Positions 5,682 through 55,910 of a DNA stretch of 64,000 bases are shown here, one piece after another (positions within the stretch are counted from its first letter, which is position 1; every line of letters begins with the position of its first letter). A program made the translations under genes and the position numbers. The notes under the pieces were generated by a model. The model worked only from the letters and a program-made list of their open reading frames with translations. It was not told the DNA's origin and did no database searches. This DNA comes from Planctomycetota bacterium (GTDB lineage Bacteria > Planctomycetota > Planctomycetia > Pirellulales > Pirellulaceae): contig JAPLNI010000025.1 in the NCBI GenBank assembly GCA_026692865.1, positions 124,001 through 188,000 of the forward strand, written 5' to 3'.

Positions 5682-5891
5682 GGTTGGTGTTCTTTTTGTA
5701 AATGGGAGAGGTATTAGGGTGGCATGAAAAAACTGAGCTAATATCGCTAACCACGGGTGTTGATTTTGCTAAAGCCTGCCATTAAGCACGTAAGGCCACG
5801 GCTCACGATAAACTTCATATTCATCAGCCTAAGTCTGGGTGAGGAAAAATTAAATTTGTAAAGGTCGCTGAGATTAATTGTGTTAAACCAA

Positions 5892-22224: not shown

Positions 22225-22278
22225 ATTGCTGGCGCCTTCGAAAAAACGTGGCTAGGTGAGAAGTAGAAGATGCTTTGG

Positions 22279-22369
22279 GCCGCTGGCCTTAGCCGCGTTA
22301 TTGGTTGTTAGACGTTGTTGCGCAAGCGAGTGGTGAGTCGAGCAAACTCGGCTAGCGCCTCAAGCTCAG
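22279..22369. repeat. Intergenic palindromic repeat, family 1, copy A
   Basis: The arms are GGCCTTAGCCGCGTTA (about 22285-22300) and AAACTCGGCTAGCGCC (22344-22359), separated by a loop containing TGCGCAAGCGAGTGGTGAGTC. Copy B at 54619-54701 has the same arms and a recognisably related loop (TGCGCAAGCG.GT.GT.AGTC). The motif GAGCCG...GCGCTAGCC also forms the arm of the element inside tilS. Non-coding; between nrdJ and a convergent sulfatase gene. Confidence 0.65.
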
Positions 22370-22412
22370 AGGTTTTCGAGCTTCGTATAATGACGATTAT
22401 CAAAATCTTTCA

Positions 22413-40306: not shown

Positions 40307-41497
40307 ATGATTGAGAGAAAGATACTCACGCGATGGCCTATCGAACGATGGTCGAACTTGACTGTCGTTGCTGGCTGCAGTGGTGGTGCCGATTCGACCG
40401 CATTGTTGGTTGCTCTTCATCGATTATGTCTACCAACAACAACGATTGTGGTTGCGCACTTCAATCACAAGCTTCGCGGGGCTGAAACCGAGGCCGATGC
40501 GTCCTTTGTGCGAAATCTAGCGGAACGTTTGCAGCTCCAGCTAGTCGAAGGACAACCCGGAGTTTTCCCACAAAAAACTGAGCCGATAGCGCTAGCCACG
40601 GGTAGCGGAGGTACCGACTTTCCATCTGAGAGACAATCCACACCCGAGGCTAACGCCTACGGCTCAGGGAAAGAAAGTTCTTCATCAATCCAGCCTAAGT
40701 CAGGCGTCGAAGAAACAACCACCGAAGGGCAATTGGTAGATGAAGCTTCCCTTCGTGGGATACGTTATCAATTTCTAGAACGCACTGCCTTGCAACTCGG
40801 AGCACGTTATGTTGCTGTCGGCCATCACGCCGATGATCAAGTAGAAACCGTATTGCATAATCTGTTTCGCGGATCTGGATTGTCAGGTCTTCGAGGGATG
40901 TCCGCATTTCGAGGCCTGGGGAAGGATCTTGTTCTCGTTAGACCGATGATCGATGCGTGGCGAGAGGAAGTGATCGACTATTTGAAGTCTCATCGCCAGT
41001 CATTTCGTAGTGACAGTAGCAACGCGAGCGAATCGTATACGCGTAACCGAATTCGCAATCGGTTGCTTCCACTCATTCAAGAGCATTATGGTCGTGACGT
41101 TCGATCTGCTGTAGCTAACGCTGCCGATTTATTGGGCGATGTATTTGTAGATGTAGACCTACAATCAAAGCGATGGTCTTCTGAGAACCTAGTGCATCTG
41201 AATGAGCAACAATTCAGCATCCCGTACCCAATTAAAGCATCGCCCGCATGGCATATCGTTCAACAGTCGATCGTCAATGAGTATCATCGTCGTGGATGGT
41301 CTCTTGGAGGCTACAGTCGTGCGCATTGGCATGCGTTGCAAGCTTTCTTAAGTGGCAAACATGCATCTACCAGTGCAGGCATGTCGATGCTGCCCGATCA
41401 CGTTACTGTTCGAAAGACTGCCGATGGTTTCGTCTTCGAACGTATTACGACCAGAGACGTCTTGCCACCGGTCGTTCGTGTTGCTGAGTCGGATTGA
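40307..41497 (+). CDS. tilS: tRNA(Ile)-lysidine synthetase with a repeat-derived insert
   Basis: Modifies C34 of tRNA-Ile2 to lysidine so that it reads AUA; essential. PP-loop VAGCSGGADSTALL at 21-34, then HFNHKLRGAETEADASFVRNLAERLQL and GHHADDQVETVLHNLFRGSGLSGLRGM. The core is N-type TilS (about 396 aa with a short C-terminal part). Between LVEGQPGVFP (about 79-88) and DEASLRGIRYQFLE (about 145) there is an insert of roughly 55 residues, which family members lack. About 30 of them (91-121, EPIALATGSGG...PEANAYGSG) are encoded by a palindromic repeat at 40578-40667. The 3' end overlaps the convergent rhomboid gene by 53 bp. Confidence 0.94.
   Translation: MIERKILTRWPIERWSNLTVVAGCSGGADSTALLVALHRLCLPTTTIVVAHFNHKLRGAETEADASFVRNLAERLQLQLVEGQPGVFPQKTEPIALATGSGGTDFPSERQSTPEANAYGSGKESSSSIQPKSGVEETTTEGQLVDEASLRGIRYQFLERTALQLGARYVAVGHHADDQVETVLHNLFRGSGLSGLRGMSAFRGLGKDLVLVRPMIDAWREEVIDYLKSHRQSFRSDSSNASESYTRNRIRNRLLPLIQEHYGRDVRSAVANAADLLGDVFVDVDLQSKRWSSENLVHLNEQQFSIPYPIKASPAWHIVQQSIVNEYHRRGWSLGGYSRAHWHALQAFLSGKHASTSAGMSMLPDHVTVRKTADGFVFERITTRDVLPPVVRVAESD
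40578..40667 (+). repeat. Palindromic repeat embedded in frame in tilS (family 1, copy C)
   Basis: The arms are CTGAGCCGATAGCGCTAGCC extended by ACGGGT (40578-40603) and its imperfect reverse complement (40642-40667, reading ACCCGAGGCTAACGCC then TACGGCTCAG). 21 of 26 positions pair across a 38-nt loop. The element is 90 bp, a multiple of three, with no stop in the used frame. A related copy in the same reading frame lies in the gene at 55551-55910, and the arm motif recurs in the intergenic copies A and B. Confidence 0.7.
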
Positions 41498-54474: not shown

Positions 54475-54618
54475 AGAAGGATCACCTTGCGTTGAGGCAG
54501 GACCAAATTGCGATGGGGGGGAAAGTCTACGATAAATGATAACTGAATTTTCGAGACGAAAGACATTCATCCGAATCATTTTGCAGATATATAAAATGAC
54601 GTTAAAAGCCAATTTCTC

Positions 54619-54701
54619 GAGCCGCCGGCGCTAGCCGCGTTAGTGGACGTTCCTGCGCAAGCGGGTAGTTAGTCTTTTGAACTCGGCTAGCGCAGGAGGC
54701 T
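54619..54701. repeat. Intergenic palindromic repeat, family 1, copy B
   Basis: GAGCCGCCGGCGCTAGCC followed by GCGTT (54619-54641) faces AACTCGGCTAGCGC (54680-54693). GCGCTAGCCGCGTT pairs with that right arm at 13 of 14 positions. The loop TGCGCAAGCGGGTAGTTAGTC matches copy A (22279-22369) closely. It lies between the ThuA-cytochrome gene start and the TatD-like gene stop. Confidence 0.65.
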
Positions 54702-54704
54702 TCG

Positions 54705-55526
54705 TTAACGATTGACTTCGTCAACGATTGACTTCCATTTTTGGCTTTGCTGGAAGAATTGATTTGGATTTTGGTAGACGATTTTTTCGATCAGGGCGCG
54801 AGGATGACCGCGTTGCTTGAGTTCGAGAATCAGATCCGGGATTGCGGTCGGTTTGCTTGGTCCCCAGTCACCAGCACTATTGGCCATGAGTCGCTCGGTG
54901 CCATAGGTTTCGATCATGTCAGCGGCTCGTTGCGGTGTGCATTTTGAGATCGGATACATCGTCATGCCCGCCCAAAAACCTCGGTCAAGCACTTCGCGAA
55001 TCGTGTGCTCTTCTACGTGGTCCACAAGAACACGTGAGGGATCGATTCGAGAATCTTGAGTCAGCATATCCAAGATCATTCGCGTTCCTTGATACTTGTC
55101 TTCAAGGTGTGGCGTGTGAATCAAAATTTGTTGATTGTATTTGACCGCTAGTTCAACGTGCTCGAGAAAGATGGTCGCTTCGTTACGAGTATTTTTGTTG
55201 AGCCCGATCTCTCCGATTCCCAAGACGTTGGGTGCGTCCAGAAACTCCGGGATCATCGCAATTACCTCTCGCGAGAGCGAAACATTTTCGGCTTCTTTGG
55301 CGTTAATACAGAGCCATGTGTAATGGCGTATTCCGTATTGAGCAGCTCGCTTGGGTTCGAAGTCGGTCAATTGTCGAAAGTAATCGCGAAAGCTTTCAAC
55401 ACTTCCGCGATCGAAGCCTGCCCAAAACGCAGGTTCGCTCATCGCTACGCAACCCATCTTGGCAAGCGTCTCGTAGTCGTCGGTCGTCCGCGAGACCATG
55501 TGGATATGAGGATCGATGTAGTCCAT
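54705..55526 (-). CDS. TatD-like metal-dependent hydrolase
   Basis: A 273-residue amidohydrolase-fold protein. Metal ligands are visible as IDPHIHMVSRT (H-x-H) at 4-14, GIGEIGLN (Glu), QILIHTPHLEDK (His) and VLVDHVEEHT (His), with a late Asp in NSAGDWGPS. The closest type is the TatD/EboB-like branch of TIM-barrel hydrolases; substrate unknown. It follows the small gene at 55551-55910 with 24 nt between, forming a two-gene unit. A 16-bp tandem duplication (54704-54735) sits across its stop codon. No other ebo-cluster gene is present. Confidence 0.88.
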   Translation of the reverse strand: MDYIDPHIHMVSRTTDDYETLAKMGCVAMSEPAFWAGFDRGSVESFRDYFRQLTDFEPKRAAQYGIRHYTWLCINAKEAENVSLSREVIAMIPEFLDAPNVLGIGEIGLNKNTRNEATIFLEHVELAVKYNQQILIHTPHLEDKYQGTRMILDMLTQDSRIDPSRVLVDHVEEHTIREVLDRGFWAGMTMYPISKCTPQRAADMIETYGTERLMANSAGDWGPSKPTAIPDLILELKQRGHPRALIEKIVYQNPNQFFQQSQKWKSIVDEVNR

Positions 55527-55550: not shown

Positions 55551-55910
55551 TCAGTTCGCAGGGAGTTGAAACTGCTGCATCCAGTCTGGTGTGTAAGGCC
55601 GACTCAAGAGCTCCTGGATACGTCGCGTTTTGTCAGGTAGTCTGTCGCTTAAAATAGCGATAGCGTTTTGGATTTTTTGATAGGACGGATCGGAATAGAC
55701 GGCATTACCTGAGGAGGCGCTAGCCTCGGGTGACGCATCGCTACGTGGTGGAACGCCAGAACCCGTGTTTAGCGTCGACTGCTTAGCGTGTGCTTCTGCC
55801 GAACTAGCGGCAGCCCGATCGATTCGGTCCAAGACAGCCGCGACCTCGATAATCTTCGCACGGGCGATCAGATAGTCGTTTTGCAGAATTTGTTGTGGTG
55901 ATCTGACCAT
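55551..55910 (-). CDS. Small unknown protein with a repeat-derived segment (119 aa)
   Basis: Not recognised. From ATG 55910: a helical N-terminus (VRSPQQILQNDYLIARAKIIEVAAVLDRIDRA), a Ser/Ala-rich middle (about 38-70), and a helical C-terminus (KIQNAIAILSDRLPDKTRRIQELLSRPYTPDWMQQF). The middle, residues about 45-68 (TLNTGSGVPPRSDASPEASA), is encoded by a palindromic repeat related to the one inside tilS. Bracketing helical parts look conserved and the repeat looks like a tolerated linker. The frame is open to 56087, but the extra part looks non-coding. Followed by the TatD-like gene, which suggests a joint function. Confidence 0.7.
   Translation of the reverse strand: MVRSPQQILQNDYLIARAKIIEVAAVLDRIDRAAASSAEAHAKQSTLNTGSGVPPRSDASPEASASSGNAVYSDPSYQKIQNAIAILSDRLPDKTRRIQELLSRPYTPDWMQQFQLPAN
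55708..55776 (-). repeat. Palindromic repeat embedded in frame in the gene at 55551-55910 (family 1, copy D)
   Basis: GGCGCTAGCCTCGGGT (55716-55731) and ACCCGTGTTTAGCGTC (55761-55776) pair at 12 of 16 positions. Read in gene sense it gives CTAAACACGGGTTCTGGC...CACCCGAGGCTAGCGCC, alignable with the tilS element CTAGCCACGGGTAGCGGA...CACCCGAGGCTAACGCC. Both give peptides of the form L-x-T-G-S-G ... P-E-A-x-A-x-(G)-S-G. Confidence 0.65.

Follow-up and report, generated by a model that had tools for sequence, protein, structure and literature searches.

A REPIN-like palindrome dispersed in a planctomycete genome lies in a single codon phase within genes

The genome of a planctomycete carries several hundred copies of a dispersed, short, non-autonomous mobile palindrome, and copies of this element lie within protein-coding genes. 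The host is placed among the planctomycetes by its PSCyt and PSD proteins and by the names of its relatives that bear a RAYT gene. Two such genes, tilS and a gene of 119 codons, are found in the 64,000-nt stretch of DNA analyzed here (the window). The element very probably consists of a REPIN-like core, to which many copies add MITE-like ends, and its landings in genes would be tolerated when they are in phase, with the inserts drifting afterward.

The core of the element is 85 nt long and is built from an arm CCTGAGCCGATGGCGCTAGCCACGGGT, a loop of ~29 nt, and a second arm CACCCGAGGCTAGCGCCTACGGCTCAGG, the two 26-nt arms being inverted and able to pair with each other. The element shares with REPINs two short imperfect palindromic arms that are inverted and present in many copies. 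By inspection, no GT[AG]G is found at the hairpin foot in the consensus, where the arms begin CCTGAGCC, and the element is therefore called REPIN-like and not a canonical GTAG REP. The 16-nt core pattern GCGYTAGCCTCGGGTG has 40 exact matches genome-wide (reversed control, 0). With up to two mismatches, the arm patterns CACCCGAGGCTAGCGCC and GGCGCTAGCCACGGGT, which overlap so that their counts are not additive, have 260 (reversed control, 0) and 305 (control, 6) matches in the genome, respectively. A covariance model, R1, was built from 20 genomic copies, including the copy in tilS (L017) but not the copy in the 119-aa gene. An extended form of ~120 nt has inverted ends TGGGCTGATGAAA, and longer copies carry TGGGCTGATGAA 5′ of the core and AAAATGCCCTTTTCATCAGCCCA 3′ of it (consensus of the 54 best copies). 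Within the sequence of this genome (G000) that was examined, all 15 exact matches to TGGGCTGATGAAA and 28 of the 37 matches with one mismatch are no more than 60 nt away from a core. Some copies also have direct repeats (GTCCGAGTC, CTAGTGCTG, ACCGTAAGGC, CCCTGTGTCTG) that end 9–13 nt before the core and start 20–26 nt after it. At these expected offsets, 7 of 75 copies (some from the congener G001, with the tandem loci L107 and L150 left out) have direct repeats that are 8 nt or longer, compared with 12 of 1471 mispaired flanks, and 68 of the 75 copies have no such repeat. A looser search that included tandem arrays found repeats of this length in 13 of 54 copies and 13 of 197 mispaired flanks. 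With inverted ends and, in some copies, direct repeats, the element thus resembles a REP-type palindrome with MITE-type ends.

Variants and other repeats accompany these copies. Tandem arrays of three copies ~130 nt apart occur at L107:4080–4424 and L150:5047–5389, the L150 trio lying within one ORF, and three closely spaced copies of a variant with a longer loop (112–114 nt) occur within two ORFs at L152:1583–2697 and are shared with G001. In the window, positions 22273–22371 and 54615–54706 hold another repeat pair (GCCGCCGGCGCTAGCC...AACTCGGCTAGCGC), 76–81% alike and both between long ORFs; their matches to R1 are weak, and they are probably a second palindromic repeat family. A possible degenerate third window copy of the element itself lies at 5731–5808 on the plus strand (R1 E 0.0073, window search). 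At gathering thresholds, Rfam finds a single tRNA and nothing else in the 64-kb window.

The gene of 119 codons lies on the minus strand at 55551–55910. Its ORF spans 178 aa if the most upstream start is taken and 119 aa from the ATG at 55910, the start that agrees with the orthologues. The protein has no match in Pfam or NCBIfam, and its translation across the repeat reads ...STLNTGSGVPPRSDASPEASASSG..., with the element between conserved N-terminal and C-terminal parts. The earlier note had placed the repeat at 55708–55776, a span that takes in the right arm and the greater part of the loop, within a full core at 55707–55788 on the minus strand. R1 matches this degenerate copy with an E of 5.2e-7 and the tilS copy with 8.2e-19, and translation places both window copies in the same frame, so the claims of the earlier note that the two repeats belong to one family and share a frame hold. 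The hairpin of the 55.7-kb copy is lost (the fold is no better than that of shuffled sequence, z 0.28), and this degeneracy is what chance similarity between short GC-rich stretches would have in its favor. Such an explanation has a negligible probability given the E value of 5e-7, the 260 arm matches against none for the reversed control, and the better-kept orthologous copy in the congener (L210:1654–1738), relative to which the window copy is 3 nt shorter. The insert is absent from all 13 of the more distant orthologues aligned (alignment A3, which covers 13 of the 23 further genomes that gave a match). A single-sequence AlphaFold2 prediction of the 119-aa protein is a poor model (pLDDT 58.5) with a low-confidence coil at about residues 47–74, at the element. 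The copy that the earlier note offered as a finding is thus a real one, but it is judged from these alignments to be older than the tilS copy, as it is common to the congener; the copy absent there is the one in tilS.

The gene tilS, encoding tRNA(Ile)-lysidine synthetase (TIGR02432, E 1e-46), occupies 40307–41494 on the plus strand, with the stop codon next (ORF to 41497). Its core copy, at 40576–40669 on the plus strand, has an intact palindrome (R1 E 8.2e-19, the copy being in the model) and a DNA fold z of −4.9 relative to shuffled sequence. Comparison with the congener locus L237 delimits an inserted segment at 40545–40714 (plus strand) with a 7–8-nt direct repeat (TCGAAGGA / TCGAAGAA); the net insertion is 162 nt and is absent from the congener. 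The translation across the repeat reads ...EPIALATGSGGTDFPSERQSTPEANAYGSG..., PF01171 matches on both sides of the insert, and the insertion site is a loop of variable length among the 25–26 aligned orthologues (alignment A4). AlphaFold2 gives a poor model of TilS alone (pLDDT 38).

The comparison of orthologues with and without the element, proposed in the earlier note, identified empty sites in G001 for four in-gene copies. Besides TilS, these are the carboxyltransferase gene L099:2025 (net 129 nt), the ORF L141:2028, which has no Pfam match (net 129 nt), and the PSCyt2 gene L123 (net 135 nt). All four net lengths are multiples of three, and the congener ORFs run through all four empty sites, which shows that the element has moved. 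At L099, the 9-nt GTCCGAGTC is single in the empty site of G001 and double in the filled site. Locus L195 (123 nt) was rejected as an empty site, its left flank being unaligned up to the junction.

A census was made of 0.85 Mb of the 5.55-Mb genome, comprising the window, the surroundings of known matches, and another 12 stretches (226 kb) without a previously known match. At E ≤ 0.01, R1 finds 166 places in these 0.85 Mb, both strands of one place being counted once; the 12 further stretches contain six weak places, one of them within a long ORF. The true copy number genome-wide is higher, since only 150 of 2153 candidates were scored in the model search. In 54 of the 166 copies (50 ORFs), the core is crossed by an ORF of at least 200 aa, taken from its most upstream start codon, that extends 45 nt or more beyond the core on each side, and 112 copies lie elsewhere; these limits on ORF length and distance replaced a stricter first coding filter that passed 2 of the 166. 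All 54 in-ORF copies are in codon phase 2, with 51 in plus and 3 in minus (mirror) orientation, the palindrome making the two orientations nearly equivalent. The dominance of a single frame, which the earlier note had put forward as a test of its reading, is therefore borne out among the 166 copies in 0.85 Mb.

In plus orientation, the main frame of the element encodes xPEPMALATG...APEASAYGSG, and stops in the other frames come from CTGAG, GCTAGC or, on the minus strand, CCGTAGG. Over the 166 copies, the main frame is open in 118 and the mirror frame in 27, with 29 open copy-frames among the remaining four frames. ORFs of at least 200 aa use none of the 29 open copy-frames in phase 0 or 1 but use the main frame in 51 of the 118 copies where it is open (p 1.2e-6), although copies with other open frames tend toward lower scores. 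The dominance of one frame is due to stops in the arms, which close the rest. The earlier note had attributed the frame preference to a stop-free frame rich in Ser, Gly, and Pro; the stop-free part of that account stands, and the amino acid composition drops out as a reason. Among copies with a core length other than 85, 20 of 23 in-gene copies have an offset that is a multiple of three (thus three in-gene copies depart from the rule), as do 17 of 69 other copies. Sorted by their right arm, 34 of 77 copies with CGAGGCTA, 2 of 21 with CCGGAGCTA, the type that flanks RAYT, and 18 of 68 with other right arms are in long ORFs.

The ORFs that contain inserts include genes for recognizable enzymes. 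In a Pfam scan of the 50 ORFs, the insert falls within a match or between matches on both sides in 16. It lies inside a match in inositol monophosphatase, amidohydrolase, AMP-binding enzyme, PSCyt2, AcrB, TilS, polyprenyl synthetase, pectic acid lyase, and carboxyltransferase, and when the far side is scanned separately it matches the same family in carboxyltransferase, TilS, polyprenyl synthetase, and pectic acid lyase. It lies between matches in an M24 peptidase, a SpoU methylase, a GTPase (with a DUF697 match slightly below the cut-off), HrpB, a PSD protein, a ResB/CcsA-type protein, and a PD40/M28 peptidase. Left out of the 16 are L138 and L173, with no Pfam support N-terminal of the insert, and L076, where C-terminal Pfam support reaches only E 0.02. 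The repeats might instead be intergenic or leader elements, with the ORFs through them mostly spurious. The 112 copies outside such ORFs fit this account, as do the 18 of 54 inserts that start in codons 1–80 counted from the most upstream start; translation may really begin further downstream in these cases, and the 18 early inserts may be untranslated leader. This account is nevertheless very improbable in view of the Pfam matches that surround the insert in 16 of 50 ORFs, the uninterrupted congener ORFs at all four empty sites, the low dN/dS of the flanks given below, and the 32 copies that lie at least 100 codons past the most upstream start and at least 40 codons before the ORF end (31 in plus and 1 in minus orientation, phase 2).

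Copies shared with the congener show how the inserts evolve. Nonzero length differences between shared copies are multiples of three in 9 of 10 cases within ORFs, the exception being the pair at L080, which differs by −14 nt, compared with 3 of 11 outside ORFs (p 0.0075; L135:1829, L159:3738, and L175:1958 are included among the 11). In 15 cleanly aligned pairs of in-gene copies, taken without L141:2028 (an empty site) and L080, dN/dS is 0.83 over 469 insert codons and 0.12 over 2970 flank codons, the flanks being up to 120 codons on each side. Substitutions are spread nearly evenly over the three codon positions in the insert (70/56/76), as opposed to 257/174/883 in the flanks. The arms diverge alike in genes and elsewhere (mismatch 0.099 and 0.094), as does the loop (0.196 and 0.199), in a count made without L135:1829, L141:2028, L159:3738, and L175:1958, which are badly aligned or empty. 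The dN/dS of the inserts, together with the equal divergence of arms and loop in and out of genes, indicates that the peptide is nearly free to change. However, the same 15 pairs have a synonymous divergence of 0.162 in the insert and 0.401 in the flanks, a deficit at odds with the element being simply neutral DNA. Gene conversion among copies and constraint at the DNA level are both candidate explanations for this low divergence, and the remaining conservation seems to act on DNA.

These results bear on the proposal of the earlier note that a mobile element spreads linker-like peptides into proteins. The mobility of the element is upheld by the empty sites; given the little selection on the peptide, its spread is to be read as passive tolerance of insertions and not as selection for linkers. 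That the peptide is useful, selection having kept it in many proteins as a linker or tag, might be suggested by its likeness across many unrelated proteins and its retention in both species at the 15 cleanly aligned orthologous sites, but we regard this as improbable: the inserts show the relaxed dN/dS and nearly even codon-position pattern described above, arms and loop diverge in genes as they do outside, and orthologues without the insert exist. Since the peptide is hardly constrained and the arms and loop diverge alike in and out of genes, the element is best described as selfish DNA tolerated as a spacer.

Under this reading of a REPIN-like element tolerated in phase, most copies leave a single codon phase without stops. 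A landing within a gene in the open phase would, if its net length is a multiple of three, add a flexible peptide, predicted at 43–54 residues in the four measured cases, and translation would continue through it; such inserts are probably translated and harmless. Other insertions in genes would truncate the protein and are presumably purged by selection. Surviving inserts would then drift, the palindrome decaying and the peptide changing almost freely while indels stay multiples of three. The open frame could even be an adaptation of a selfish palindrome linked to REP/RAYT, with the lengths of the ends and loop summing to multiples of three, a tentative idea that we consider rather unlikely. 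If it were true, the element would be one that colonizes planctomycete coding DNA and continually adds in-frame spacers to core enzymes.

The RAYT (Y1/HUH) transposase family is a candidate mover of the element, though another enzyme may move it instead. The Y1 transposase family has five matches in the genome, and a RAYT (Y1 transposase) gene at L041/L090 (PF01797, 28.2 bits; cut-off, 23) has R1-type repeats to either side of it. R1 matches (E ≤ 0.05) also lie on both sides of a RAYT relative at 6 of 19 named planctomycete loci (L296–L300, L309). Among 40 genomes including this one, 9 have both the element and a RAYT homologue, 2 the element only, 7 the homologue only, and 22 neither (p 0.0025); the two genomes with R1 matches in which no RAYT homologue was detected are G007 and G030, and the seven with a homologue have no R1 match. 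The congener, 87% complete, matches R1 about as often (at least 95 times, compared with at least 110 in G000, of 113 scored) but has only a distant RAYT, with 39% identity. At the site of the G000 RAYT gene (L090:1339–2127), 793 nt separate the flanks, compared with 104 nt at L351 of G001, which has no RAYT there and keeps one flanking repeat. Target duplications are not expected of RAYT. The genomes that have one of element and RAYT but not the other, the lack of an orthologous RAYT in the congener, and the short target duplications of some copies thus weaken the case for RAYT as the mover.

A competing view, to which we give slightly less than an even chance, is that the extended 120-nt form is a MITE that carries REP-like arms and is moved by the DDE-type transposase of some insertion sequence, not by RAYT. 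It draws on the TGGGCTGATGAAA ends adjoining the cores, on the excess of direct repeats over mispaired flanks, and on the repeat that is single in the empty and double in the filled L099 site. It has to contend with the R1-type repeats that flank RAYT genes in several genomes, with the 68 of 75 copies that have no such duplication, and with the fact that the 0.85 Mb examined contain no parent element with TGGGCTGATGAAA ends.

The REPIN-like element can be compared with several known systems, as each is described in portions of the papers cited here. REPs and REPINs are inverted pairs of short imperfect palindromes, present in hundreds of copies and flanking a RAYT (TnpA-REP) gene (PMC3733652, PMC6006769). 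REPs within ORFs of other bacteria have already been described (PMC3733652, section 15), the RAYT gene itself has been reported to take up REP insertions without a change of frame (PMC6006769), and REPs in Planctomycetes have been mentioned (PMC3733652). The planctomycete element likewise has inverted arm pairs in hundreds and a RAYT gene flanked by repeats, but it differs in the absence of the GT[AG]G foot, in its conserved outer ends and some short target duplications, and in the 54 of 166 examined copies that lie in long ORFs. The NEMIS/Correia, ERIC, and YPAL MITEs have inverted ends, target duplications, and an open frame that fuses in frame (PMC2229807). For instance, the open 107-bp form of NEMIS occurs in genes, whereas the 155-bp form, closed in all frames, is absent from genes apart from one exception (PMC2229807). 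The planctomycete element resembles the open 107-bp form in fusing in frame with genes, although its sequence and ends differ from those of these MITEs (which have 5′-TA termini), for which no REP-like arms or RAYT are described in the relevant portions of PMC2229807.

The best-known palindromes that invade proteins are those of Rickettsia, whose members live as obligate intracellular bacteria. The Rickettsia palindromic elements (RPEs) are dispersed palindromes of ~105–150 nt, many of them in frame in conserved genes, with orthologous inserts common to several species (PMC2229807, PMC10969869, PMC3767692). The planctomycete element is similarly a palindrome of 100–150 nt inserted in frame in conserved genes and acts as the RPEs do, a likeness that we do not extend to membership in the RPEs. 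It differs in its host, which belongs to another phylum, has a larger genome (5.55 Mb), and is presumably free-living, and in its link to REP-like arms and a RAYT gene. In-frame palindromes of planctomycetes are absent among the matches listed in a literature search. In this planctomycete genus, with a 5.5-Mb genome, dozens of palindromes lie within genes, some of them as empty and filled pairs between two species; with these natural pairs and a candidate transposase family, the coding compatibility of mobile DNA and its cost to proteins become testable.
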